DNA of 64,000 bases from Heliocidaris erythrogramma (lineage: Eukaryota; Echinodermata; Echinoidea; Camarodonta; Echinometridae): assembly GCA_025617745.1 (NCBI GenBank), contig CM046853.1:61022616-61086615 (forward strand), in the 5' to 3' direction. The notes below the pieces were generated by a model. That model saw nothing but the letters and a program-made list of their open reading frames with translations, was not told the DNA's origin and searched no databases. The position numbers and the translations under genes were made by a program. Below are positions 2,274 to 60,375 of the stretch, piece by piece. The number at the start of each line of letters is the position of its first letter. Position 1 is the first letter of the stretch.

Positions 2274-2956
2274 TTACCGAGCATGAACCTCTGCCGCAAC
2301 TATACGGGTAGCACTCGAATGCTTCGTAACATCGGCGTATAGTTGCAGGTCGCCATCTTGTTGAAGGGTGTGGCTGCGCCGGTCGGTATCTACACTATGT
2401 ATTGCTTGTGGGGTAGCTGCACGCTGCTTATCGTAAAATGAAGCCAAATTACCGCTGTTGTCACGCCATTTCCCGGCCGAGAAGTAATGTCGCTTCCCCG
2501 CTTTGAATGATTCCTGTACATCCTTTTGCCATTTTTTCTTTTCTGCTCTATCTATAGCTGTCAAATCGTCGATGACGTAAAAAGGGTATCTCTCCAACTT
2601 TTTCCGCTGTTGCGAAAGCACAAATCGCTTATCCTGATACGACAACATCTTGATGAGTAGATGGCGTGGTTTATCTCCAACTTTTCGGCCGTCGCGATGA
2701 GCTCTCTCTATTTGAGGGGACTGCATACCAAAATACTTGTCGAGGAAAGCTGTGGCTACTTCCATCCCTTCCTCCTGATGAGACGTGGACAATCCCATTA
2801 TCCCACCACTCTGAAATTGTTCCTACGAGAAAATCGTTCAAGCTTGTTCTCTGCTAGCACCGACTTCTCAAGGGCTTGGGTGTTTTGTTGGGTAGCAATC
2901 TCTAATTCCTGAACTTTCTTCTCTAGCGGAGACATCCGTTTCTCTAACAAAGACAT
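2274..2956 (-). pseudogene. L1-type ORF1p-like fragment of a non-LTR element
   Basis: Read from an ATG at 2956 on the minus strand, the product starts with a coiled-coil-like LEKRMSPLEKKVQELEI stretch, then RFSRRNNFRVVG, which fits the conserved N(N)IRI(V/I)G start of the ORF1p RNA-binding domain. After one frame change near 2798 it continues with IERAHRDG, KPRHLLIKM and YPFYVIDDL, matching the RRM and C-terminal domain of L1-type ORF1 (Transposase_22 family). In full elements this protein is an RNA-binding chaperone of the retrotransposon RNP. It lies head-to-head with the endonuclease/RT segment that begins at 2957. Family is clear; the element clade is less so. Confidence 0.75.
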
Positions 2957-5770
2957 TTACCTCATGGGTGATTTTAATATAGATCTCTCTCTGCCTTACA
3001 CTGCCCTTGGGCAACATTTTACTAATTTATTATTATCATTTTCTTTCAAACCTCTTATTGACAAACCTACGAGGATTACAAATACAACACATACAATAAT
3101 TGACATTTTCTCAAACGTACTGAGTACAGATGGTAATGGAATAATATATTACGATATCTCAGACCATCTACCAATTTTCACGATATGTTCAGATAATAAA
3201 CGCTTACATCAACATTCAAATAAAGAACACATTACTCGACGAAAAGAAACCAAACGCAACATAGAGTCCCTAAAAACAGATTTGAGTACAGAAAGTTGGC
3301 AAGATGTTTTTCATGAGACAAAGGCTAATAATTCATATGAAATATTTATAAACAAACTTCTTAATTATTATGATAAAAATGTGCCTCTGACAAGAATAAC
3401 TTCCAGCAAAAAGAAGAATAAACAACCGTGGATCACTCAAGGAATAATAAAATCAATATTTACTCGTAATAGATTATATAAAATATCACTTAAATCACCT
3501 ACTTTGGCACATCAAAACAAATATAAAAAATACCGTAATAAGCTAACTTCTATTATCCGTTTAGCACGAAAATAATATTTTTCTGACAAAATTGAAAGCA
3601 ATAAAGACAATAACAAAACACTGTGGCATACAATTAATGAAATGTTAGGTAAAAAAAGAGAAAATGTACAAAATGTTGAATTATTAGAGAATGGAAATTA
3701 CGTTAAAGACAATGGTCTCATTGCTGATGCATTTAATACATATTTTACCAATGTTGGCCCAAAATTGGCCTCAAAGATTGATACTAATGATAATGATTTT
3801 TCACAATATCTAAATAATCATACCGAGCACTCATTATTTTTTAATCCGACGAATGTTCATGAAATTTTAGAAATTGTTCGATCTCTAAGTCCTTCTAAAT
3901 CTAGTGGCCATGATGGAATAAGTGTACATCTATTAAAACAAATTATTCATTTCCTGGCTTCCCCGCTGGCACATATTTTCAATCTCTTTCCCAGGGAATT
4001 TTTCCTGATTCACTAAAACTTGCCAAAATAATTCCAGTATTTAAAAAAGATGACCCATGCCTTATTGCAAATTATCGCCCAATCTCGTTGTTACCAAGCT
4101 TTTCTAAAATACTTGAAAAAATTGTTTACAAACGTTTATACTCTTTTTTGGATATGAATAAACTATTAATTCCCAACCAATATGGCTTCAGAAAAAATCA
4201 TTCGACTGACCACGCAATTTTACAACTTTACGACAAAATAACTGATTCATTTTCAAAAAAGGAGCACACTGTTGGGGTTTTCATGGATTTATCGAAGGCA
4301 TTCGATACAATGGATCATGCTATATTATTATGTAAATTGAAGACATATGGCATCAGAGGGATCGTACTTTCCTGGTTTAAGGACTACTTAGATAATAGAC
4401 GTCAATATGTTAATTTCAAATCCAAATCATCTAATATATGTACTGTGAAATGTGGAGTACCACAGGGCTCAATCTTAGGGCCCTTACTGTTTTTAATATA
4501 TATGAATGATATTTTCAATGCATCACCTTTACTAACATACGTTTTATTTGCAGATGATACTAACATATTTTATTCACACCAAAATTTAAACATGCTTGTT
4601 ACAACTCTGAATCTAGAACTAAAGAAATTATCATTGTGGTTTAAATCCAATAAACTCTCCCTCAATATAAACAAAACAAACTTCACGTACTTTAAACACA
4701 TTAATTCTACACATGTATTTCGAAATAATATTTTCATTGATGACATGCCCGTTACTGAAAAACATGAAACAAAATTTCTAGGTATATTGATCGACTCAAA
4801 TGTAACTTGGAATAGTCACGTTCGTAACATTAGCATGTTGGTAGCAAGAGGCATAGGTATTTTATATAAATTGAAATATTATCTTTCTCAAAGATCACTA
4901 TTAATGCTCTACAACTCATTTATTTTGTCACATATATCGTACTGTAATATAGTATGGGGAAATAGTAACAAAATGAATATAGACACTATGTTGCGTCTTC
5001 AAAAGAAAGCACTCCGTATCTGTTCTCATTCTCATTATTTAGCCCACACCGATCCTATATTTCATAAGTTTAAAACATTGAAAATTAACGATATTCACAC
5101 CTACCAAACTGCTATATTTATGTATAAATTTTCCACCAACACTACACCAATATCCTTTCATAATATTTTTATCTACAATAGAGATGTCCATTCCTACCCG
5201 GCACGACATTCATCAGATCTTCATTTAACAAATCCAAAGTTAATAATAGCTCAAAAAACGATAAGATATCACGGTCCAGATGTTTGGAACAATTTACCTC
5301 ATGATATTAAACACGCCGTATCTCTTTTTTCTTTTAAAGCTTCGTTAAAGAAGTATTTGCTATCCACTTATTTGTAAACTTCTCACTTGCACACTTTTCA
5401 CTTCAATCCCTTTCCTTCCCCCTTTCCCCTTCTTTTTGTAGTAAGAATTTTTTTTTTCAGTTAGTGACATCGCTTTTATGATATAGACATTTTATATTAA
5501 TTATGCTTTCCATGTAACCCTTTCCACTGGCTGCTATTCATTCAAGCATTTTGCTTAAGATAGCTGGCCCCTGCATTTCTGCCATTTCTACTTGTTCATT
5601 TCGATTTATAATCATGTCTTTATTCTGTTGTCATTGTTATTTAACTGTCACATTTGTAATTTGAACAATTATGTTGTATATTTATTACTATAATTGTTTG
5701 TAAATTTGTTATTTGATTTGACAATAAATGCAGAAAATCCTGCTTTGCAGGTTATTATAAAAAAAAAAAC
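2957..5770 (+). mobile_element. CR1/L2-superfamily LINE, 5'-truncated, endonuclease tail plus reverse transcriptase
   Basis: Translation begins inside the APE-type endonuclease (YLMGDFNIDL, then KPTRIT and YDISDHLPIF, the catalytic SDH motif). It continues through the linker into a reverse transcriptase with NYRPISLLPSFSKILEK, MDLSKAFDTMDHAIL, CGVPQGSILGPLLF and the catalytic FADD (in VLFADDT), and ends at a stop at 5375-5377. About 390 bp of 3' UTR follow, with AATAAA at 5723 and an A-run at 5760-5770. The frame is broken by one stop at 3573 and one frameshift near 3990-4016, otherwise intact, so the copy is fairly young but dead. The N-terminal half of the endonuclease is missing; the sequence jumps to inverted ORF1-like DNA at 2956. 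Confidence 0.9.
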
Positions 5771-17456: not shown

Positions 17457-18181
17457 CATAAGTTCAGCAATGTCTCGCGTCTCCTGGAGACCAGTGTCCA
17501 TCGTTAATGAATCGACATGTCCTCCTAGGTCTCCCTCTTCTTGCTTCTCCATGGAGGGGTTTCCATGCACAGGACCACTCAGTGAAGTGTGAGCTCTGGA
17601 TGCCTTTGATCATGCACTGAAAGCTTCAATCTCCTCTGGGTTACTTTGGAGCTGACCTTTGGAAGGTTTCCCTACAGCTCAGAGTTCCTCAATCTTGTTG
17701 CGAATTGGTTGACGTTCAGAGCCATCCTTTAACATTCTAGTGTAGCACCCATCAACCATCTGAGTAAGTCTCTTTGTAAGGGCCCAGGCCTCTGACCCAT
17801 ACAACAAAACATACTCCACCGTAGCTGTGAAGAGACTTATCTTTAGGACTTTACGGAGGTCTGATTCCCATACCGACTTAAAGCTGTAGCATACTGCCCA
17901 GGCTTTCTTCACCCTATCCACAACGTCATTCTCTGTGTTCCTGATATTTGCTCCCAAGTACAGGAAGTCATCCACCAATTCATTGGCTTCCCACCAGCAC
18001 TCACGATTCCTCTGACTCCAAGACGTTCTCCAGCAGATAGTCTTGCTCTCATTTATCTGCAGTCCTACATTCGTAGATACCTCCTCCACCTCTCTCAGTA
18101 ACTCCTCTGCCTCCTTTACTGTGTTTGCAACAGGAACTATGTCGTCAGCCAAACTCAGATCTGATATCTTCTTAGCCTTAA
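17457..18181 (-). pseudogene. LINE reverse-transcriptase C-terminal fragment running into the gap
   Basis: On the minus strand the frame leaving the gap reads LSLADDIV (LADD catalytic motif), then GLQINESKT, FLYLGANI, VEYVLLYGSEAWALTKRL and CYTRMLKDG, a typical non-LTR RT thumb/C-terminal region of the kind common in marine invertebrates (RTE-like or related; clade uncertain). Past 17679 the homology continues in other frames (GNLPKVSSKV-like, then METPPW), so several frame breaks have accumulated. The 5' part must lie in the N gap or be lost. It sits just upstream of the protease exons, in opposite orientation. Confidence 0.8.
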
Positions 18182-18681
18182 NNNNNNNNNNNNNNNNNNN
18201 NNNNNNNNNNNNNNNNNNNNNNNNNNNNNNNNNNNNNNNNNNNNNNNNNNNNNNNNNNNNNNNNNNNNNNNNNNNNNNNNNNNNNNNNNNNNNNNNNNNN
18301 NNNNNNNNNNNNNNNNNNNNNNNNNNNNNNNNNNNNNNNNNNNNNNNNNNNNNNNNNNNNNNNNNNNNNNNNNNNNNNNNNNNNNNNNNNNNNNNNNNNN
18401 NNNNNNNNNNNNNNNNNNNNNNNNNNNNNNNNNNNNNNNNNNNNNNNNNNNNNNNNNNNNNNNNNNNNNNNNNNNNNNNNNNNNNNNNNNNNNNNNNNNN
18501 NNNNNNNNNNNNNNNNNNNNNNNNNNNNNNNNNNNNNNNNNNNNNNNNNNNNNNNNNNNNNNNNNNNNNNNNNNNNNNNNNNNNNNNNNNNNNNNNNNNN
18601 NNNNNNNNNNNNNNNNNNNNNNNNNNNNNNNNNNNNNNNNNNNNNNNNNNNNNNNNNNNNNNNNNNNNNNNNNNNNNNNNN
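18182..18681. other. Assembly gap of 500 N
   Basis: Exactly 500 unknown bases, a common placeholder length, so the true distance is unknown. Both the rest of the LINE and the 5' exon(s) of the protease gene could lie here. Confidence 1.
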
Positions 18682-18793
18682 ATTATACAAAAGAAGATTG
18701 TGTATTTTGGTGCTCCCTGATTTGGGAAATCGGTTGGTATAAAAATTATTCCTTTCTTACACCGATTACCGTCTTTTCTTTTCTGATGTTCAG

Positions 18794-21700
18794 ATTTGGT
18801 TGACCATGATTTCCTCCTGGTAACGGACACGTATCATCGGGGTATCTACCAGGTGGCATTAAACTCGAACTTTAAACCGGAAGCAGTACGATTGTATGGC
18901 GTCAGGAATCCCATTGGCGTTAGCTTCGACCCAGCAGAAAGGACAGTATACTGGACAGATGTGGAGAAGCGGGAAATCAATCGCGCGTCTCTAGATGGCA
19001 GTCGGCAAGAAACTATAGCAATAGAAAACATCGGACGTAAGAAAGTTAAATATGAATTCGAATTAGAAAAAAAACAACAAACACAAATTCATGATTCACT
19101 CTCATTTATCATTGCTTTCACAGACGATGAAAACAAGATATTACACAACTGGGTGATAAATGATGAAAAATTGTATTTTGATATACATGTACATGAACAT
19201 TCTTGGAATGTACTACATGTAAATGCAATTCTCTTGATTAATGACTTTCCCTAAAACATTATATGTGATCATGGTGATGAACATGTTTCTACTATTGTTC
19301 GTGAAATCTCTTGGGCGACAGGTTGTATACGGAGGATAAAACAATTACGTCGTATGGTAGGCTGCTATGTCTGAGGCTAATGTGCTATTCGGTAGCACTT
19401 ACAGGCGTTTTGCACAGTATCAACAATAAGACAAGAAATATAAGCTGCTCAGATTATGCGGACAAAGGACAGAATACGAGTGTGGGCATGACAATGATGC
19501 AGTGCCAATTCTGTTACGCCTTTGTAATTAGTATGACAGTGTTTATATCCATTTTTCCTTCAGAACCTGATGGCATTGTAGTGGACTCCATCTCTCAGTT
19601 AGTCTACTGGACGGACCTCGCAACATCCTCCATCTCTGTATCTACTCTGGATGGCTCAGACCGTAAAACACTCGTCACGGGCCTTGCTAAACCCCGAGCC
19701 ATCACACTGCATCCTGTTGAAGGGTAATAAGGCATCCAACATGTTTTCGTTGTTTTTCGCAGAAGAAGTAAACAAAAAAAAAGGTTTGCTTTCAAATGAA
19801 AGTTCGTCCCGAGGGATAGAGTTGCAATGAGTTATACATCAAATAAACGGCACTGTATCACAATGTAGACGACACCTGCAAAGCCATAAAGCTTGTTATT
19901 AAAAACAACTGCCTCATTTCTTTGCTCACAGCCAAATGCAAGGATTTCAGTAGCTGATAACTATAATTATTGTAACATATTATCAAAACAAGTTTTATGA
20001 AACAGGATCTGGTTTACGCATTTATTCAGAAAAAAATGTAGTAATTCGACTTAAAGGGATACTCAACCGCATATTGTGGATAGACTGATAGACTGGTCGC
20101 CGCACAAACATGCACGCTGCGCCTGAGCTCGAGCTCTCGTGCGAGATTCGGTCGGCTTCGTGCAGTCGAAATGTAATCCAACTTAGTCCAACGGACGCGT
20201 TCGACGCACAAACATTGTGTACGAGTGAATGGGGCTTACGCAATCTTGACTTTCCCCACGGCCGCCCGGTGGCGTATCCCTTTAAGACCATGTTTGTTAG
20301 AAAATATGAAGCGTACTCTCATAATGTCATAACTACTTCAATAAAGATTATGTATTAAATCTACCTTACATGGTACCTTATGTTTAAAACAATATCCTAA
20401 GATTTATTTACAATCAGTATAAATACACACAAAAAGTAAGGTCTCCCCCCTGAGCCGCTACTCACGATTTCGGAACCACAAAATTTTGAACAAATTTACC
20501 GAGAAGGGACTGTGCCTGTGGTTCTTATGTAACTTTTGTGTGAATAACAGAGGAATCCGTCGAGTCATGCTTGAATGGGCATGCACGTTTTAAATACAAA
20601 AATGGTCACATTTCAAAATTCACCAGAAGGTCATTTCTCTATATAGGCCAAGGAGTTATTTTCTTGTATATGCATGCCTAGTCATCTAGTGTACTAACTG
20701 ACGGCGCTGTGTGTATGCATTGATGCATTGGAATGGTTAATGATATCCTGCTGACCTTGAATCCTTGAATTTTGCGGTTTACAGAGCACAATAACAATAA
20801 CCAAGACTCAAGTGTTACTGAAGTAGTGTCATATAACAAGGCTTATGGTGCCGGTTTCTCGATAAAACTAGTTTATACGGGAACTTCAAGTTATTAAACA
20901 ATATGCTTTCCACTTATATCAGAATAATGTTTTGGAGCGACTGGCGGAGTAGTGCGGTGATCGAACGATCGTATATGGATGGCGACATGCGCCGAGTCAT
21001 CGTAAACACAGGTCTCAGGTGGACGAATGGCTTAGCTATTGACTTTGGAGGTATAGTTGTGACGCAGTTGCTATTCGGTCTCCATAGCAGAACCAAACAT
21101 CTAGAATCTGAATTCACATTTTTATAAAAGATGTATTTCTGAGGCATATCATGTTGTTAAGAATAATTATATAACGGGAGCATAAACATGATAAAGTGAT
21201 TTTTTTTAAATGCAGGGCGTTCTATAGCGAAAGTAACGGTGAAAGCTTTTTCTCCCGATTTGTTTTTCTTCGAAAGTGTATGAAACGATTAAGCCTGATC
21301 CCTGCAATGATAATCTTTATTTCCTAATTTGACACGTTCTTTCCATTAAATTTTTCGAAATGATATGGAATTTTTGGCAAAATGTATACAGCATTTTCGT
21401 ATAATTTCTTACTATTTACCCTGTGTAGGCCCTATGCAATACCTGTACTTTAATTTCAGATTTCAGACGTGACGTGTATTACTTTTTGTGGAGGTTATAG
21501 GTTTCATTCTACATTAAGATGAAATTTAAAGAAAACGGCGCTACACACAATGTATAACAGAGAGGATTTGAAATATTTTCATAATGTTCACAATATGAAA
21601 TAAAAACATTGTGTTAACACTGTTTGACAGAAGGAGTAGTATAGTCATATCGTAAGGTTTCAGTAGTGTTATCCTCTATATACTCTTGAGGTTTCTGTCA

Positions 21701-24700
21701 TTCCTAATTCTTTTCGATCAGAAAATCGGCTCTACTGGTGCGATGGCGGTCTAGATAGGATCGAATCCAGCGACTTTTCAGGGCACGACCGCCGTATCGT
21801 CCTCAATCTCGGAGAGGGTTCCCATGCTTTTGGGATATCAGTCATCGACCACTCGGTCTACTGGACAGACTGGGGGGCCAGAAGTCTACTGAAGGTGGAC
21901 AAACTGACCGGACAGGATAAAGAGGTGCTCGGTCAGAGGGACTTTTCTCGACCGAACGCCCTTTTTGCAGTTACCAACGCATCCCTTCCGTCGGGTCAGA
22001 ATTAAGCACATTTAAACATCTCCAAGAACGACCTATTCAGTTTTAATAGATTAAAAAGATTTAAAAGACGATCGAATAAAAAAAAATAAACTATGTGGTT
22101 ACATCATTATCACCATCTTTGATGATAATAGTAACAGAACAATTTTCAGCAAAAGATTATCATCAGACCAAACGTTTCTGATCTTGAACCCAATTAAGTC
22201 ACATGTACATATTATATAGAGAAACAAAGAGGGAAGACTGATAATAATTTCATTCCATATGCAATGTTTACACACAAAAAAAAAGAAAAGCTAACCAGAA
22301 TAGCATTATTATTTTATATCAAAAGAACTGTTTGATAGGTTGCAGACTTGTTTGAAAGCCCATTGCAATTGAATACTGCCTATATAGGCTTCCAGATACA
22401 ACCATAAAACAATATGATTTGCAAACTGCCCATCACTGACTTGTGTTAAAAAGATGTCCGATATTCTGTGAATGGTGTCGCTGACGAAAATATTAAACCA
22501 CTGATCATGGATTTGCCATACTTCCGTATTATTGATTAAATATCAATCTGATCAACAGGAATTAACTCATGTTCGGAGAACAACGGAGGCTGTTCCAATC
22601 TGTGCTTGCCAACTGCCATTGGAAGAACGTGCGCATGTGCAGATGGAGTAGATTTGGCATCAGATGGAATCACATGCGTCTCAGGTATAAAATAAATCAA
22701 ACGATTAACTTATCTTCATATTTCCATTTCTAATACAATACGTAGATAATTATATTCCATTTATTTTGATAAGATTTGCAATAAATCATATATTCGCGCT
22801 TCTGTCCAGTTATATACCTGTACCCGAAATGAGGTCTTTTATCTGGCAGTGCCATTATCTCTTACTTTTGTCCGAACCACTGTTTCTTTCAGAGCTGGAC
22901 ATCGAGTGTCCACTGGACTTCACGTACGGAGGGGTGGAAGAGTCATGTGACAGGTCACCCGGAAGTAATTGCTCGGTGCTATGTTACTCAGGTCTCGTTC
23001 CGGCCGTGGATTACGTCATCTGCCAGAACTCGGGAAGCTGGGATGTTGCACGGACATCTATTTGTCGAGGTAAAGTATAAATCGAAGAAAAGGGTTGATA
23101 TAATGATGTTAACCGATATAATGATGTTTACCGGTCATCATCCTAACACAATTTGAAATCAGATTGGTGGATTGTGACGCATTTGTTACACGATAATAAC
23201 GCTGTGAAGCGCATTAAGGTATTCACGTATATATGCGGTATATGAATGTCATATATTATTATTGTTATGATTATTATTATTATTATCAGTAATGATATTA
23301 TTGATATTATTGCTATTATTATCATTATGTGTATTTAACATTTGGAGTGGAAAAGTAAGATGGTTATTTGTATTAAATCTATGTCGAAGTGCTTGATAAT
23401 GCATAATTATGAGAAAAGCTCTGGCAGAAGTTCGTTTTAATGAATGAAAATAGGAATTTGCCTGTTTATGTATGAAACAACAAGTTTTGCATTGGCATGG
23501 TATGAACAATAATCATAATTTATTGATCGGACATGTAGTTGACAGAAGGAAAAGAGAATCAAAACAACTAAATTCTCTATTAATTTCAAGATATTGCTTT
23601 ATCATTCTGTTAACAGAGGAGCAATGCGATGCCTTGATGTGCCGGATCATGCCATATTTTCTGGGCCATGCAACCCTCCCTACGACCAGGGCAAGCTGTG
23701 TATCTTAGAATGTGAGCCCGGGTACGTCAGAACGAGCGGGAAACCGAGACGAGTTTGCGCGCACGGTGGAGAATGGCTTGGCACACCCATCGTCTGCGAG
23801 GGTAATGTTCCATAAACACGTGGTCCTCTCTGGCTCCTTTTTTGTGGTTGGGGTTGGTTGGTGGATAGTTTACTATATTTAGCACTAGCTTCAGCACTGA
23901 AATAACGTTGCTTAAGTTTAGTTGTTAAATCATCAAGCATAAGGTATTGTTCAACAAATGCTGGTAGAAATTATATGATCAAGAAGGATATTTACATTTT
24001 AGCAAATTTATATTTTTCCTTTCACATTTGTTAACTTAATTATTTATGATTCATCAAGTTAATAGTTTACAGTTATAACCGCCCAAACTTGGAATGCACA
24101 CGTCTTGATAGCTCAAATACAAACTTCCAATCAAAACAAAATTATTTAAATAACATAAGTTTATCATAAGCACCATCGAGAATGAACGTTTTGCTGTAAA
24201 TTCCTATTGATCTTTATTTTTGTGTTTAATGTTAGAAATGACACAGGAGCCCACGGAGGGCGAATGTAGCAGGGCACTGGAATTTCGAGAGACACCCTAC
24301 GACCTCTCACCAATACAGAACGATCTGGTTCAACAATCCTGCATCGCCAACTCTCCTCAGGCCGACATCACGTGGTACAAAGATGGCGTCCGACTCATGA
24401 CAGGTTAGATGGCAGCTTTTTCACAGTAAAACTAATAATGAAGAAAGTAAAATATAGTTCATATAGGTGGAAGATTTGTGCTGATATTGTTTCATATTTT
24501 TGATCATATAGAAACTTGAAAAGAAAGGGTCTGTTAGTTTTAACTTTCTCAGTGTGTAGATGAATGCAGTTATTCACGAACTAACTTTCAAGCGATTCCA
24601 AACCCGCTTCCTTATTAGGCGTATATCAGTACCTATACTATTCTCAATTCTTCCTTTTTATTTGCATTTTCCTTGATTATATTCATCTTTGTTTTGTTTT

Positions 24701-27594
24701 TCTACATTTTAGGCTCTGTGAACGGAATCTACATACTTCCTTCTAATGACCTCCTTATTCCAGGGTTTGAAACACATCACCAAGGTCACTACGCATGCGT
24801 AGCCTCTTTTTCAGGTCGAGAATGCCTGAGAGTTGAGGTTGAGTTTGGTAAGTCGTTAATTAGGCTAATGGAAACAAAATACTTAAAAGGAAATCATATT
24901 CACGAGATATATTCTGCCATTATTTTATGGAAGAAACCTATTAGTCCATTAGTCCGGTACGAAATGGAAAGAAACGTATCAGTTTGGCTGCAGCCAGATC
25001 GAGCCTTTTCTGGTGTATCCAGCAAGGAGTTGGTACACCCTACACCTGTCTAAAGAATGGGGAAATCATTAAAGCTTACCTTACATTTCAAGAACATTCC
25101 CACCACTTCCACCCTCCAATCCGGAGATTATTCAAGCGTCCCTCCTCCTGTTAATCATTTTCATGAGAAAAGTCTGACATAATTGATTCAAAGTATATGA
25201 AAGTGTCTTTTTCCCCCTTAAACTTTCCAATCAGCATTCGATCCATATCGGCATTTTGAAGCAGTTCCCGCCAACGCATCCTTGGAGACTGGAGATCATT
25301 ATCTGTTGGAATGTCAAGCTAATTCGGCCATTGATTCTGTGAACTGGCTAAAGGACGGATCGATGGTCTCTCAGACAGACCAAATTATTCTGGTTAGTCC
25401 TGGGGAGCGTTTCATCAAGCATTTTGTCAGTGATTTTTTACCGACAACTGTTATAAGCTACTGAAATCCTTGCATCTGATTGGCTGAGAGCAAATTTGTC
25501 GGTAAAAATCACCGACAAAACGCTTGATGAAACGCTCCACTGTCCGTACATAAAAGCGTGGGAAATAGAATGCAACTCCCTAAATATAACACGATTATTT
25601 GGGTAGCCAGTTGGAAATAAAGTTAGCACTTGTTTGGATTCATGGTTGGTTAGAATTTAGAAAGGTTTAGCCTATCGCTGGTCATTATTAAACATGGACC
25701 ATATTCTCCTGGAACAAAGGTTTTCATGCCATTATGTGAAAATCAAGAGTTGGCTTTATGTCGAACCACCTGATCATATTTCACAATGACCAAAGTCATA
25801 GACTTTTGAAAAATGTTCAGTAGTATTTAACAACAGAGAAAAAGTCTGTTCTCGTCATACACGTAATAACTACAGACACTATGGGGCTATTTCTGTGAAA
25901 TATCGAGGTTTATATCATGATCATCACAATGCTTTATTTCCATTGCCTTTTTTCTTCACATTTTCAGATCTCAGGAGGCAGCCTGCTGATAAGGAACTTG
26001 GTTAGTCAAGACTCTGGCAAGTACACCTGCATCGTGTCAGACCAACGGGGCAACCAAAGGGGAGAGGCTCATGCCTGGCTTTCTGTAGCAGATACAATGA
26101 ACATGCCCACCATCAATATAACAGAAGGTAATATTATGAAGCTTGCTTGTTGGAATACCCCACGGTATGATTTTTTTTCATCAGTATGATTATTTGAATG
26201 GTTAAGAGACAAATAAAAAAATGATTGAAACGCATTCATAAAAAAGCTATCACAATTTATTTAGTAAGTGCATTTCGAGAGTGATCAGGAAAATATTGTA
26301 AAATAATGGTGATGAGAATGAGGCTTGTGAAAACAATGACAAGGTAGGAAATAATGATAGTTATGATGTTAATGGCGGTCATGATGATTTTAAGATGATG
26401 ACAATTATTGTGATGGTGATAATGTTGGTGATGTTTGTCGAAGTGATGATGGTGATGTCGATGATGATTATTATGATGGTGATGATATGATGATGATAAT
26501 GATGATTATCATTAACTTGATGATGATGATAGTGATTATGATGATAATGGTCGAGTTGATAAATAATGGTGATATCAATTGTGATGTTGATGGTGATGAT
26601 AATGATAATGATGGTTGTGATGATGACTATGATGTTGATGTTTATGTAGATGTTGATTGTGATGTCAATGATGGTGTTAATGATGTCAATTCTATTGGCT
26701 ATAACAACGATAATGAAATATAATGTTGGACGTAATGCAAACTTTCATTATTATGAATGCCCTTGAAATATTATTTTTTGTGTGTCATTATACTATCCAG
26801 TGTGTGGGACAGTCACATCCCCAGAAGCCACAGTTGTCACCACTGTAGCACCCAGGGATGGTAGAGTGGTAGGCGGGCAGCAGTCCCTTCCTGGCTCTGC
26901 TCCTTATATGGGTCGCATTTGGCATAAAGCAGACCGTAGCTTTGTATGTGGCGCCACTCTCCTGAACCAGAGGTGGGTCCTGACTGCAGCACATTGCATC
27001 GTCCTCTACAACCTCCAATTTCGCGACATCCTTCTCTACTTCGGCGACCATGATACCATGACTACGGAAGACCACCAGGTCATTGCTGAGGTTGACCAGA
27101 TCATTCAGCACGAAGACTTTGACGAAGAAAGCTTTGACAAGGACATCGCTCTCATCCGCCTCAAGCAACCATTTGCTGAATTCACAGACTACATTCGCCC
27201 GATATGCCTTCCATCTGCTTTGTTGGCCAAAATGCTCTTGCAGACTGACATGATGGGAAGGGTGACGGGCTGGGGACAGATCGCTGAGGGCGGGCCATAC
27301 CCAAGGTATCTCACAGAGGTCGAACTTCCAGTCGTCAGACATAAGAAGTGTAAAGATGCGACCTCATACGACGTGACGAAATTCATGTTTTGCGCGGGAT
27401 ACGCCAGTGCTGAGGATAAGAAAGATGCCTGTCAGGGGGACAGTGGTGGACCCTTTGCCATGCGCCTTGAGAACAGGTGGTATCAGCTCGGGATAGTGAG
27501 TTGGGGAGAAGGCTGTGCTAGGGATAGCAAATACGGCTATTACACAAAGATCTTACGATTCCACGCCTGGATTGAGAGGCACACTTCAGAGTAG
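18794..27594 (+). CDS. Secreted mosaic serine protease: YWTD propeller - EGF - CCP - CCP - Ig - Ig - trypsin (5' end missing)
   Basis: Twelve exons join without a phase error: 18794-19036, 19564-19723, 20923-21050, 21722-21994, 22559-22684, 22893-23069, 23619-23801, 24236-24403, 24713-24847, 25235-25392, 25968-26127, 26801-27594, giving 900 residues. Residues 1-267 form six LDL-receptor class B blades (YWTD, YWTD, FWSD, YWCD, YWTD). About 268-310 is an EGF module ([12 protein letters not shown]). Two sushi modules (to about 430) and two Ig-like domains (to about 637; WYKDG and [13 protein letters not shown] and GKYTCIVS) follow. The trypsin domain starts at R|VVGG and has His in TAAHC, Asp in DIALI, Ser in GDSGGP and Asp189 (DACQGD), predicting cleavage after Arg/Lys. 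A Cys upstream of the activation site and one in RPICLP could tether the two chains. The exon model is solid. Substrate is unknown; MASP/C1s-like or matrix roles are inference. A signal peptide is expected in an unseen exon ending in phase 1. Confidence 0.92.
20055..20281. mobile_element. TTAA-flanked GC-rich MITE in a protease intron
   Basis: Inverted AGGGATAC ends are flanked by TTAA at 20051-20054 and 20282-20285. The 227-bp interior is much richer in G+C and CpG than the intron around it. The short TIR and TTAA target suggest a piggyBac- or Kolobok-type element. Confidence 0.75.
23240..23330. repeat. (ATT)n-rich microsatellite in a protease intron
   Basis: Runs of TATTATTATTAT with interruptions between the two sushi exons. 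Confidence 0.85.
25402..25538. mobile_element. Hairpin MITE, copy 1, in a protease intron
   Basis: Inverted ends GGGGAGCGTTTCATCAAGC and GCTTGATGAAACGCTCC enclose about 137 bp, with inner arms TTGTC(A/G)GTGATTTTT. It lies about ten bases 3' of the first Ig2 exon's splice donor. A second copy in the opposite orientation is at 40917-41050. Confidence 0.8.
26270..26725. repeat. GAT/ATG-rich low-complexity tract
   Basis: Long irregular (GATGATGATAAT)n just upstream of the protease catalytic exon; the Met/Ile/Asp-rich frames within it are composition artefacts. Confidence 0.85.
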
Positions 27595-32378: not shown

Positions 32379-35300
32379 ATGCCAGCAGATGAAGAACGCA
32401 GAGCAATCATGAAGAGTCCATCAACTCTCAAGGTATGTAAAAGTTTATTACAGAAGCATATGATTTAAGTTTAAAAGGGAGATTTCTGGAGTTTTAACAC
32501 TGTGTCTATAAAAGTTATCTAACAGGGCAATCGATGATTTATGGAGCAAATAATTGCATGAAAATGATATTATTTTTTGAAATTCAAGTTAAATCCGTAA
32601 ATTGGTTGGTAGTTATATAATTATGAAAAAGAAGGTAAGCGTTACTAAAGGAGGATTGGTAAACTGTGAATCAATAGAGCCAATCCCAATTTTCAGAAAA
32701 TTATCATTAAACATAAAATTTGTCATTTCTCTCTCCCTCTCTGAATTGAAAGGAGCCCAAATCTGTTATCTTCCCTGTCCAACGGTCTCAGTGGCTGACC
32801 AGCGCGTTGTCGCACGCTTACAGTAGTCGAATGTCTGAAGCCAACATCAACAACGAGATCGTCGTCCTCTCAACCGGCATCGATCAATACATCCAAGAAG
32901 TGTTCTTTCACCTTGGCAACAGGGATCGCATCATTGGTATAAATGGAGATGATCTTGAACCAGAAACGATTTCATCGGAAGATTTTAAGATCCTCTGCCA
33001 GTTTCTCGGAGCAGACGAGGAGAGCTTGAACGAAGAAAGCGAGCTGCAATGCAAGGATGGTGACGGGATTGAATTTCAAGACTTTCATTCCCGGTTAATC
33101 GAGGTATTTTCCGAGATCGATGATGAAGACAGCAACTTGGATGATGAGAGGAAGAGAAGAGAAAACCAAAACAGATGGAGGAGTGATGATGAGGTAGTGG
33201 AAGCTGGTATTAACGTCCCCGATAGACAGGGTTTGGTGTTACGTCAAATGTGCACAGAGTGCTTCCAACAACGACCCGTCTTGGAAGTCTATCATTCGGT
33301 ACTCTACAAACAGGGAAAGTCACCTATATCTAAAGGTTAGTAAGAAAACAAAAAATATTATCCCAATCAAACTAATCGTCATTATCTTGCTTCATTGTTT
33401 TATATTAAAGCTGAAAACAGTAGGCAAAGTATGGTATATCATCATAAAACTAGGATTTAACACTGATTTGTGGAGCTATAAAAGAAGAAACCGTTGCTAC
33501 TAACACAATGCTTAAAAAACTCGATGAGACACAAACCTTGCTCTCATCATGTATGTAGATATTGTGTTCAAACTCTCACTACATCAAGTAACATTCTCTT
33601 TATAATGCTTTTATGATCAATGTGGTCATCTTTATTCTTCGTCCACAGTTGAAGACGACATAATCCAGATAGATAATCACACAGCAAACTGCTCCGACCG
33701 AGAAGATTGTATGAGCATTTTGGCGCGAAACGAGGAGGTGGCTCTTCTACGAGCAGAGAACAACTGTCTGCGAGAAGTGGTAGAAGACATGCGAAGAGCC
33801 TTACAGTCATGTGATGCCAAATGTCTTGCTCTGCTTGTTGAAGTTAAGAAATTTCACCAAATTAATGGACACCAGCAACACATCGATAATTGCCATAAAC
33901 AAAAGAGAAGTCGGCGCCTCGATGAGACTGAGTCGACGAGAGTTGTTAAACTTGTAAGAGAAATCAGCAGGCTGCGAGGAGACAGGGATAAACAGCTTGA
34001 GGAGGCTATTCTGTTCACCCAACAACTTGAGGCTGAACTTTGGCAAGAAAGGCAGAAAAACAAGGCTTCAGAAAAATGTGACAAGGGGTAAGTCAACTGT
34101 GTGTTTTTAAAAATAGTTTACTTTGAAACTAAAACTGTTCTCATCTAAATGTAATAATTAATTGGTATTTAACTAAGCGGTTAAAATAATTACGAAAATA
34201 GATCATAAGATTATTGATATTTAAAAAAAGCAACACCAACACTCATAGTCCAAAATGTCAAATTGTGAATTGACTTTCAAGCTAACGAATATTGTGTATT
34301 TAGGTGTCGTGATTGATTTTCTTTATTTCGTTTAAATTGCAAGAGGCCCGAGATCTAAAGAAAGTCCCTTTTGGATCTACCAATCTGCTCTCAAGCTGAT
34401 GGCAGTAAACTGGTAAAAAGCTCTCGGGTATTTTCAGAATGATCTGAATTTAACTTCATAAATAGAGCAAAATACAAGGTGTACCATTGATCCAGTTACA
34501 TGTTATGAAAGCACTATTGCTTTTTACATGAGGCGTATTATCAATGTTTTACTCCAAATCAACTACATGTATATCCTTGACCTTAGATAGTAAGAAATGC
34601 TTTAAACCATGGTTATTTCGCTATGATGCTATATTTTTTTCAAATTGCCGTTTTTGAAATTCAAGTCAATGACACTGTACACCTTTAAACACCCAAAAGT
34701 GATTCTAGATACTGTGCGGCGCCACCGCAAATCTCTTACCCAATATTCAATTTTCTTTAATCCTTGGTGGTTGTTATTTTGATCTTTTCAAACTCCTAGG
34801 ATAAGCTTTTGATCAAATTTGCGAAATCTCATCACCTCCTCTCCATGCTGCAGAGTTCGTTGACTTTTCAATCTAGAAGGGTTTAGGATGGCCGACTGAA
34901 TGAAAATGTCTTCCACGTGTATCTCGTTGTCATTGGAATGTAATTAATGATTTAGAAAGGGAAGGCAACAGGAAAGAGTTAGACAACAGGTGGCAACATG
35001 TGGTAGAAACGTAAAAATAACAAATCTGCATTCACGCCGCTGTGAAAAGAAATACCTTACTTTGTAGGCCATTTTTTTATGAAGCTATTTTCCCAAGGTG
35101 AAAAGAATGAACAAAGAAGGGATATTGAAATTGTATCTTGAATTTTGTTCGAAAAATTATAATCAAGAACAACAACAAAAAATCTTGACACCCTACCAAA
35201 GAACCAAATGAAATAAACTGTAAACCGTGCAAATGATTTCAAAAATAGTAACCTGTTTCTGAAATAAGTTTATTCAGTTATTCATCTTTTTTATTTTTTT

Positions 35301-48700: not shown

Positions 48701-50656
48701 ATCCCCTCCCTCAAACAAAAGGATGGTGTAGAAATTGCCGCCAGTGGCCCGGAATATTGTCAACACCAGGAGCAGCATTACCAAAACGATTTGTGTAGAT
48801 TAGAGTATAATGCATTTTTATAGAAAATTCGGAAGAAATATGACCTCAGAGCGCACATAAGACATCCACTAAAATATGACCTTTGATCCTATGAAAGACG
48901 GAACATCACCAAAAACTGTAGAGGTGTAATCTATAATGGACCTACATACAAAATTTGAATGAAATCCGTCAAGAAATGCAGAAGTAAGAGTGCACAAAAG
49001 GGACAAATGAGCTTTGACCCTATAAAGGACGGAACAATGAGGGCAGCATCACCAAACAGTAAAGATGTGTAGATTATACCAAGATACATCTCCATACAAA
49101 ATTTGAAAGAAATCCATCAAGAAATGTGGCCTGCAGAGTGAACTCACGCCATCCCTTGAAGTATGACCTTTGACCCTATAAAAGACGGGACACTGGTGGC
49201 AGCATCACCAAAAACTACAGGTTTTTAGATTACACCAAGGGACACCTTCATGCAAAATTTGAACGCAATCCGTCAAGAAATGCAGAAGTAAGAGTGCAAG
49301 AAATGGAAAAATGACCTTTGACCCTATAAAGGACGGAACAATGAGGGCAGCATCACCAAAAATTAAATATGTGTAGATTATACCAAGATACATCTCCATA
49401 CAAAATTTGAATGAAATCCGTCAAGAAATGCAGAAGTAAGAGTGCACAAAAGGGACAAATGAGCTTTGACCCTATAAAGGACGGAACAATGAGGGCAGCA
49501 TCACCAAACAGTAAAGATGTGTAGATTATACCAAGATACATCTCCATACAAAATTTGAAAGAAATCCATCAAGAAATGTGGCCTGCAGAGTGAACTCACG
49601 CCATCCCTTGAAGTATGACCTTTGACCCTATAAAAGACGGGACACTGGTGGCAGCATCACCAAAAACTACAGGTTTTTAGATTTCACCAAGGGACACCTT
49701 CATGCAAAATTTGAACGAAATCCGTCAAGAAATGCAGAAGTAAGAGTGCAAGAAATGGAAAAATGACCTTTGACCCTATAAAGGACGGAACAATGAGGGC
49801 AGCATCACCAAAAATTAAACATGTGTAGATTATACCAAGATACATCTCCATACAAAATTTGAACAAAATCCATTGAGAAATGTGGACTGCAGAGTGCACT
49901 CACGACATGTCCTGAAGTATGACCTTTGACCCTATAAAAGACGGGACACTGGGGGCAGCATCACCAAACACTATAGGTTTTTAAATTACACCAAGAGACA
50001 CCTTCATGTAAAATTTGAACAAAATCCGTTGAGAAATGTGACCGCCAGAGCGCACACAAGAGTACACACAAGACATCTATCAAAATATGACCTTTGACCC
50101 TATAAAAGACGGAACACTGGGGGCAGCATCACCAAAATCTATAGGGTTCCAGATTTTACCAAGAGACACCTTCATACAAAATTTGAACAAAATCCGTTGA
50201 GAAATGTGACCGCTAGAGCGCACACAAACTTTCCCCAAAAATATGGCCTTTTACCCTATAAAAGACGGAACACTGGGGGCAGCATCACCAGAAACTATAG
50301 GGGTCCAGATTTTACCAAGATACACGTCCATAGGAAGTCTGAAAGAAATTCGTCGAGAAATGTGACCGCTAGAGCGCACACAAGAATGTGACGCGGCAGC
50401 GGCGGCGGCGGCGGCGGCGAAACGCTGCTGAATCCAAAGTATCCTCCGGCATACTGCCGGGGGATACAATAATATAATAATAAATCCTGACAATCCTTTA
50501 GGATAAAACTTAGTTTAGTGTCAAAACCTACCTCTCATCGGCTCTTTCTATAAGATTTTGTAGAACACCTTCAAATTTGACACGGGCATGAGTCACTTCT
50601 GTTGTCTCCTGCTTGATCTTGATAGGTGTTGACAGCATGATGGCTTTTGCAGGGAA
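43795..50656 (-). CDS. LIN37: LIN37, subunit of the MuvB core of the DREAM complex, complete
   Basis: Seven coding exons on the minus strand, in order 50532-50638 (start ATG at 50638, 18 nt of 5' UTR to the acceptor at 50656), 48168-48218, 47300-47433, 46686-46852, 45756-45887, 44725-44798, 43795-43876. They sum to 747 nt, 248 residues, near human LIN37 (246), with every phase matching. Diagnostic stretches: VMKLFDRSVDLAHF and TPLYPVCRSWM (residues about 101-125), LIYRLPSPSKTC, LQRWRVIRNKWKDAS and the C terminus SRYSESYAILKAMYERQ. LIN37 acts in the nucleus with LIN9, LIN52, LIN54 and RBBP4 to repress cell-cycle genes in quiescence. A Lys/Arg-rich KSRKRKKRE run (exon 3) could be a nuclear signal. 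Introns are filled with GA microsatellites and MITEs. A further upstream 5' exon is likely. Confidence 0.95.
43918..44070. repeat. (GA)n-rich tract in the last LIN37 intron
   Basis: GA run at 43918-43942 and scattered AGAGAA units beyond it. It sits about 40 bp upstream (in gene sense) of the last exon's acceptor. Confidence 0.85.
44600..44665. mobile_element. Solo end of a CACCGCACA-TIR MITE
   Basis: AAATCGGATCAAAGTCC, then AATCGTAAGATGTGCGGTGG, matches the right end of the element at 53536-53960 with a few changes. No partner end was found nearby. Confidence 0.5.
44889..45256. mobile_element. AATT-flanked MITE in a LIN37 intron
   Basis: Inverted ends CTCGCTACC(T/C)CAAATA(T/C)GCAATTT are flanked by AATT on both sides (44885-44888, 45257-45260). 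Length about 368 bp. The 156-codon plus-strand frame across it has no recognised domain. Confidence 0.65.
45519..45745. repeat. (GA)n and GACAGA-rich tract next to a LIN37 exon
   Basis: About 225 bp of purine-rich repeats immediately 3' (in gene sense) of the splice donor of exon 45756-45887. The long Ser/Leu- or Glu/Arg-rich frames are composition artefacts. Confidence 0.9.
47757..48135. repeat. Duplicated segment, copy B (paired with 41820-42615)
   Basis: Lies in the LIN37 intron between exons 48168-48218 and 47300-47433. It keeps an uninterrupted TTGGTGTATACTCTGAGG where copy A carries the Tc1-like insertion. Confidence 0.8.
48650..50467 (+). mobile_element. Helentron-like element with ten ~150-bp tandem units, in LIN37 intron 1
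   Basis: The left end GTATCCCCCGGC (48650) is inverted at the right (GCCGGGGGATAC, ending 50467), where TATCCTCCGGCATACTGCCGG forms a 3' hairpin. Between them run ten monomers of about 145-165 bp. Each has TGACCTTTGACCCTATAAA or a variant, GGCAGCATCACCAAA, ACCAAGA(T/G)ACA(T/C)C and CAAAATTTGAA. A 452-bp three-monomer block is repeated almost exactly (for example 49011 and 49463), so the array expanded recently. A (GCG)n run lies at 50396-50420. Structure resembles molluscan pearl and other Helentron-derived repeats; that assignment is inference. Confidence 0.7.
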
Positions 50657-60299: not shown

Positions 60300-60375
60300 G
60301 CCCCGACCGGGATTCGAACCCGGGACCCTGGATTACATGCATGACCAGTGCTCTACCAACTGAGCTATCCCCGGC
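60300..60375 (-). pseudogene. tRNA-like pseudogene or SINE head
   Basis: On the minus strand the segment has an A-box-like TAGCTCAGTTGGTAGAGC and a B-box-like GGGTTCGAATCCC, with a good T-arm. The anticodon arm has four extra bases (CATGCATG) and the acceptor stem has two G-G mismatches, so it is unlikely to be a working tRNA. An anticodon cannot be assigned. No SINE tail was defined. Confidence 0.7.

Follow-up and report, generated by a model that had tools for sequence, protein, structure and literature searches.

The window analysed here, a 64,000-nucleotide stretch of the Heliocidaris erythrogramma genome (contig CM046853.1, here C1; C1:61022616-61086615), contains on its plus strand (18794-27594) a gene of which the 5' part is missing. 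The product is predicted to be a mosaic serine protease that combines a thrombin-like enzyme with an LRP-like arm. We consider it reasonably probable that the complete gene, of which this is the 3' half, encodes a secreted modular zymogen with the layout CUB-(YWTD/EGF)x3-CCP-CCP-Ig-Ig-thrombin-class protease, and that the enzyme would serve a localised step of defence or wound clotting. Note that the assembly comprises 1.064 Gb in 26 contigs, and that 160 kb to the left of the window were also analysed. Positions without a contig are those of the window.

An initial sequence-only reading of the region had described twelve exons in phase, with the order six-blade YWTD propeller, EGF, CCP, CCP, Ig, Ig and trypsin. 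The exons do join into one frame of 900 amino acids, with GT donors and AG acceptors throughout, no internal stop and no N. Pfam places the domains of the product in the same order: Ldl_recept_b, FXa_inhibition EGF, Sushi, Ig and Trypsin (4.9e-57). The order was incomplete, since a CUB domain and two more propeller-EGF pairs lie upstream (see below). The propeller in the window, the third of the protein, occupies four exons. Exon 1 (18794-19036) encodes blades 1 and 2, exons 2 (19564-19723; Ldl_recept_b 1.6e-12) and 3 (20923-21050; 3.1e-8) each encode a YWTD blade, and exon 4 (21722-21994; 7.5e-15) encodes the final two. Five YWTD stretches are recognised by Pfam (8.6e-43 for the whole product; 5e-6 to 7e-15 for the four exons scanned singly). 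The sixth blade, which is the first in order, was assigned by eye in exon 1, outside the Pfam matches.

Exon 5 (22559-22684) encodes an EGF domain of FXa_inhibition type (1.7e-13). CCP/sushi domains 1 and 2 follow in exon 6 (22893-23069) and exon 7 (23619-23801; Sushi 1.1e-6), each with six cysteines at similar spacing. Two exons form each Ig domain: exons 8 (24236-24403) and 9 (24713-24847) for Ig 1, and exons 10 (25235-25392) and 11 (25968-26127; I-set 2.9e-11 for the pair) for Ig 2. Exon 12 (26801-27594; Trypsin 4.2e-58) carries a cysteine-bearing linker, the activation site R|VVGG, the whole thrombin-like protease domain and the stop codon. Scanned alone, CCP 1 (Sushi 0.027) and Ig 1 (Ig_3 2.3e-6 for exons 8 and 9; 28.4 bits against 30) are under the Pfam curated cut-offs. 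Their counterparts in a neighbouring gene, paralogue B, clear them (Sushi 5.3e-6 and I-set 1.9e-6, respectively). The stop codon falls directly after the protease domain, and no C-terminal membrane anchor or cytoplasmic tail was found in the exons modelled.

The codon at the start of exon 1 is split, with two of its bases in the exon (phase 1). Hence, at least one exon must lie upstream, and exon 1 is not the first of the gene. Only 112 bases separate it from a 500-N scaffold gap (18182-18681), the sole N run of the window, which severs the 5' part of the gene. An inverted near-copy in the same genome, copy A, supplies much of what is missing. The window and copy A begin to match at 18682, the very first base past the gap; identity is 99.76% up to 31663, and the match then continues with breaks. 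In all, the window from 18682 to beyond 64000 pairs with C1:60882783 down to 60813982, and the inverted match runs for at least 85 kb, the limit of the sequence analysed. Upstream of its exon 1 counterpart, copy A has 14 further exons on the same strand (C1:60908295 to 60889073) in a phase-consistent chain. They encode a CUB domain followed by two propellers, each with its EGF; the exon 1 counterpart joins the last of them in phase. Together, the 14 copy A exons and 12 window exons encode 1,666 amino acids without a stop. Note that this chain is a composite of two loci and lacks at least a signal-peptide exon. The fuller layout is CUB, three pairs of YWTD propeller and EGF, CCP, CCP, Ig, Ig and serine protease. 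In copy A, Pfam recognises the CUB domain (3.9e-26), two YWTD stretches in propeller 1 (4.9e-17) and one in propeller 2 (5e-13). Of the two EGFs, the one behind propeller 2 clears the cut-off (2e-10) and the one behind propeller 1 is below it (1.5e-5). Judged by their length and by paralogue B, propellers 1 and 2 appear to be whole; the Pfam matches do not establish their blade number.

Over 9,789 aligned bases, 11 differences separate the window from copy A. Two of these are exonic, and both are one-base length changes. In exon 4, the window version is open and that of copy A is not. Exon 7 of the window is in phase only through an AG two bases past the ordinary CAG acceptor, which would start the exon at 23617; copy A reads from the ordinary acceptor, giving a normal CCP start. 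These length differences may be alleles or sequencing errors. Copy A is probably a second haplotype retained by the assembly, with a recent inverted duplication as the alternative. By the same token, it is reasonably probable that the window copy is redundant, being either a second haplotype or else a duplicate that has lost its 5' part and its function, inverted in the assembly, and that copy A is the one that works. The start of the match at the first base after the gap, its inversion and breaks over 85 kb, and the one-base changes in two coding exons all point this way, as do the identities of matching pieces of at least 500 bases (92.7-99.8%, with three at 88.7-90.0%). Such redundancy would be compatible with the other readings considered here, and it leaves the architecture unaffected, because this is shown independently by paralogue B.

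Paralogue B is a neighbouring gene on the minus strand (C1:60956429 to 60920790), with 26 exons in one frame and in the same order as the copy A and window exons. Exon lengths are identical for 14 of the 26; for nine more, the difference is a multiple of 3 in every case, from 3 to 12 bases. In B, exons 14 and 19 each exceed their counterparts by 66 bases, probably an effect of the automatic choice of splice site, which would have entered the intron, and the last exon differs in length because that of B runs on past the protease. Across 1,646 aligned codons, the encoded proteins share 50.3% identity. Differences at codon positions 1, 2 and 3 (0.386, 0.305 and 0.656) are as expected under purifying selection. 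Pfam recognises in B the CUB domain (1.1e-15), six YWTD stretches, three FXa_inhibition EGFs, both Sushi domains, both Ig domains and Trypsin (1.6e-55). We conclude that the sequence-only reading was correct in placing LRP-type YWTD-EGF, CCP and Ig modules before the protease within one gene, rather than in an annotation fusion, since the layout is repeated in a paralogue this divergent. Paralogue B is the strongest evidence for what appears to be a real, single-gene architecture. That two adjacent genes, one LRP-like and one for a protease, were merged in the reading is highly improbable: although the model was read from genomic DNA alone, no stop interrupts the shared frame of the twelve exons where they join, and the paralogue has the same 26 exons in order with the pattern of purifying selection. 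An origin of the architecture purely in assembly error can likewise be set aside, given its independent repetition in B.

The protease exon of paralogue B also extends into what, by eye, resembles half an Ig domain (C1:60921005-60920790). A relative on contig C2 has a similar half-Ig tail after its protease (C2:67879310-67879500, also by eye). Pfam named no Ig in the tail of B. Relatives may thus end in an Ig domain that follows the protease.

The gene is not single-copy. The genome contains a family of 18 related protease exons, those of the window, copy A and paralogue B included. A whole-genome search with the protease domain, in which 145 of 172 candidates were scored, gave at least 96 matches. 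At least 18 of these, counting copy A, are full-length single-exon protease domains at E 5.1e-65 or better, and many are clustered. Three are on C1 (window, A and B), 14 on C2 and one on C17; a single one has an internal stop. Some may be second haplotypes, as copy A and the window probably are. Upstream YWTD matches on the same strand occur within 80 kb of eight of the 18 exons. For one of the eight, matches lie only at 77 kb and fit a neighbour better. Therefore, propellers appear to be present in at least seven genes or near-copies. Note that this linkage is drawn from YWTD matches only: the genome search scored 150 of 284 candidates, and 36 of the 128 matches were used in the comparison (every match on C1, C2 and C17 and two from elsewhere). 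One C2 gene, of which 18 kb were read, has both halves of one Ig domain, the protease and, by eye, a probable CCP; no YWTD match falls in that 18-kb part.

These family data bear on whether the protein might act in development or in the matrix, its LRP-type propellers binding a Wnt-, agrin- or laminin-like ligand that the protease trims locally. Among solved structures, the best natural relatives of the window propeller-EGF segment are LRP2, LRP4, LRP6, LRP8/VLDLR, LDLR and nidogen, and the Ig part matches adhesion-type Ig domains (DCC, Robo and contactin). Both would suit such a role. We nonetheless think it improbable, since 18 often clustered protease copies look more like an expanded family of defence type.

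The sequence-only reading gave the catalytic domain an intact triad, Asp189 and R|VVGG, and so took it to be an active enzyme of zymogen type. All of these residues are present in the alignment and at the codon level. The activation cut falls between 26865 and 26866, and the codons are His57 at 26992-26994, Asp102 at 27142-27144, Asp189, which sets the S1 pocket for Arg/Lys, at 27424-27426, and Ser195 (AGT) at 27442-27444. In a search of solved structures, the best 60 of 466 matches were all thrombin or prothrombin chains. The domain is 45-48% identical to human thrombin and 32-34% identical to C1r, C1s and the MASPs. It was also compared, by BLAST, with 22 reference protease domains, of which those for MASP-2, C1r, MASP-1 and FXa are identical to solved chains. 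Thrombin ranked top (217 bits, 45.1%), followed by FXa (187 bits, 40.3%). FIXa, protein C and FVIIa scored 153-154 bits (33-34%), enteropeptidase 151, matriptase 142, hepsin 136, MASP-1 132 and FXIIa 127. MASP-3, MASP-2 (121), C1r (114) and C1s (109) were in the range 109-126 bits (33-34%). The window domain has Y225, E217, R221a and K224 of the Na+ region of thrombin, in thrombin numbering, and, like thrombin, lacks the C136-C201 pair. Ahead of the activation site, the window copy has a cysteine (residue 638 of 900). By analogy with chymotrypsin-type zymogens, this light-chain Cys638 could pair with Cys122, which would keep the cut enzyme attached. A single-sequence AlphaFold model of exon 12, made without an alignment, had a mean predicted local distance difference test score of 41.7, too low to be informative.

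Phylogeny of the protease domain, which had been suggested as a check, places it beside thrombin. The window and thrombin group together (99/95) in runs with 23 and 24 rows. With 23 rows, the window groups with paralogue B (98/96), and both with thrombin (98/97). A clade with C1r/C1s/MASP was rejected by the approximately unbiased test in three of three cases (p 0.007, 0.0036 and 0.024), and a clade of vitamin-K factors excluding the sequences of this genome was rejected in two runs (p 0.018 and 0.022). Note that the trees held no invertebrate MASP-like sequence. A vitamin-K-dependent prothrombin was also considered and rejected, as Pfam scans of the modelled exons found neither Gla nor kringle. 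Likewise, a whole-genome search, run without a positive control and directed at Gla rather than kringle, found no Gla domain.

The trees also bear on a complement initiator, that is, a MASP- or C1r-like enzyme in which CUB-EGF-CUB has been swapped for CUB and propellers, and which cuts C3 or a factor B-like proenzyme. The sequence-only reading had likened the gene to C1r/C1s/MASP through the CCP-protease pair. The CCP-CCP unit is present, and the N-terminal CUB and the Ig-Ig before the protease are as in the invertebrate MASP-like enzymes described in PMC11312191. The same paper states that a mollusc MASP is able, in the absence of CCPs, to trigger cleavage of C3. In both the window and paralogue B, the catalytic domain is in a single exon and Ser195 has an AGY codon, the type named for lamprey MASP-A/B in PMC6015906, which gives the AGY and TCN codon types of lamprey MASPs. 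However, there is no CUB-EGF-CUB unit, Ig sits between CCP and protease, and the catalytic domain is nearer thrombin by BLAST, structures and trees, with the C1r/C1s/MASP clade rejected as above. We regard a complement initiator as unlikely, if somewhat less so than a developmental enzyme.

A secreted thrombin-class zymogen on a docking arm remains the reading that we favour. The protein would be secreted as a zymogen, and its CUB domain and propellers would dock it on a ligand or surface, be it matrix, cell or microbe, with the CCP and Ig modules as a stalk. Another arginine-cutting protease, or a neighbouring molecule, may then cut R|VVGG. A Cys638-Cys122 link would hold the active enzyme on its docking arm, where it could cut after Arg or Lys in a substrate held nearby. 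The outcome would be a localised step of defence or wound-clotting type, akin to thrombin or MASP on a leash. The nearest functional analogues would thus be MASP-type enzymes and thrombin. We can only infer the ligand, substrate and pathway; this applies equally to the initiation of complement or clotting and to targeting of Wnt or lipoprotein type, as the sequence-only reading had proposed.

Several observations weigh against this reading. Neither near-copy is fully open with ordinary splice sites, the window failing at exon 7 and copy A at exon 4, and the protein is known here from genomic sequence alone. No signal-peptide exon scored above thresholds between 5.4 and 18.2 kb of the window; scans upstream of copy A and paralogue B gave one weak candidate and none, respectively. 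The linker of B, in its gene model, lacks the light-chain cysteine, and so tethering may not be general. Percent identity is higher for hepsin (36.3) and FXIIa (36.1) than for FIXa, protein C and FVIIa (33-34). Hence, identity by itself marks no clotting group. When the C2 copy was added to the tree (24 rows), the three sequences of this genome grouped at 98/95 and joined thrombin at 94/95; a clade of vitamin-K factors that excludes the window then escaped rejection (p 0.12). The likeness to thrombin is sound as a resemblance; sisterhood to thrombin, with one of its three tests not significant, is tentative. Finally, the window domain lacks the thrombin insertion loop with Trp60d and has a net charge of -6, compared with +7 for thrombin. 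It therefore does not follow that it has thrombin's own substrates. Taken together, the sequence-only reading was right in substance but partial in what it observed, and partly right in how it interpreted this.

Other features of the window lie outside the gene. A reverse-transcriptase-like open reading frame (ORF), by eye from an element of the long interspersed nuclear element (LINE) type, occupies 17679-18181 on the minus strand, directly to the left of the N gap. Further ORFs of LINE-type appearance lie in 2277-5374, including one of 487 amino acids (3914-5374, plus strand) that, by eye, looks like a reverse transcriptase. The three ORFs beside it matched no Pfam family above cut-off in a scan that covered nine ORFs outside the gene. 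The next gene downstream (32750-34088, plus strand) has two exons that match Pfam CCD48 (1.3e-14 and 2.1e-10), which we take to be the EF-hand/coiled-coil protein EFCC1. Near-identical 22-residue stretches at 49225-49290 and 49677-49742, about 450 bases apart, came up as chance matches of the protein and may be duplicated exons. A tRNA match at 60305-60369 on the minus strand (37.4 bits, above the Rfam gathering score) is either a tRNA gene or a tRNA-derived short interspersed nuclear element.

How does this gene compare with known systems? The sequence-only reading knew of no described protease with an LRP propeller and Ig domains. Searches of open-licence PubMed Central turned up no propeller-protease fusion. 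One may already be described in a survey outside that scope, Ponczek et al. 2012 (J Mol Evol), which deals with the evolution of thrombin in the genomes of echinoderms, hemichordates and protochordates. PMC9643190 has Ldl_recept_b in the key to its Fig. 4; the key alone does not show which protein bears it. Within the literature searched, no earlier enzyme is described as aimed by tandem LRP-type propellers, and the window gene would encode the first. The combination of Ig-Ig and protease has been reported before: PMC11312191 describes MASP-like/C1s-like proteases (MASPL/C1sL, CUB-EGF-CUB-IG2-SP, SP being serine protease), with two Ig domains in place of CCPs, and also classical MASP (CUB-EGF-CUB-CCP2-SP), with echinoderms among the groups that have it. 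Like invertebrate MASPL as set out there, the window gene has an N-terminal CUB and two Ig domains directly before a zymogen serine protease. Unlike it, three YWTD-EGF pairs and two CCPs intervene, one CUB was found, and the modelled exons, which do not reach any exons further 5', lack a CUB-EGF-CUB N end without CCPs. The window protease is also outside the vertebrate C1/MASP group in a tree from which MASPL itself is absent. Tandem YWTD-propeller/EGF pairs are shared with the ectodomains of LRP4, LRP5, LRP6 and LRP2. Unlike these, the window gene has a CUB in front and ends in a protease, not a membrane anchor, with alternative 3' exons still possible; Pfam scans found no LDLa, and hence no LDLa cluster, in the same modelled exons.

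In C1r, C1s, MASP-2 and MASP-3, the protease domain lies in one exon. The window gene resembles C1r/C1s/MASP-1/2/3 in this respect and in its CUB, EGF and CCP-CCP modules, AGY serine codon and Tyr225. It differs in having propellers, Ig-Ig between CCP and protease, and a catalytic domain nearer thrombin. Nor does it follow the order CUB-EGF-CUB-CCP-CCP-SP by which PMC11312191 defines that group.

With prothrombin and the vitamin-K proteases, the gene shares a catalytic domain that is 45-48% identical to thrombin, the Tyr225 Na+ region, the lack of C136-C201 and, in the window copy, a cysteine before the activation site able to link Cys122. It differs in that no Gla or kringle was found, the Trp60d loop is missing, the domain is acidic and encoded by one exon, and the N-terminal modules are entirely different. 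Tentatively, and with less confidence than in the reading above, we suggest that an expanded family carrying a thrombin-class domain, free of Gla and kringle, on a CUB-propeller arm and CCP/Ig stalk might represent independent or ancestral thrombin-type proteolysis. This would be aimed by LRP-like recognition, rather than vitamin-K membrane binding, and would join the C1/MASP layout to a thrombin enzyme. Expanded coagulation-related families are reported for a brittle star (PMC11310086). Neither the origin of the thrombin catalytic domain nor the task it performed ahead of fibrin clotting is settled; one review derives prothrombin from C1/MASP-type enzymes (PMC9368803). A gene of the present kind, in which CUB, CCP and Ig modules precede a thrombin-like domain, could serve as an intermediate with which to test such an origin.

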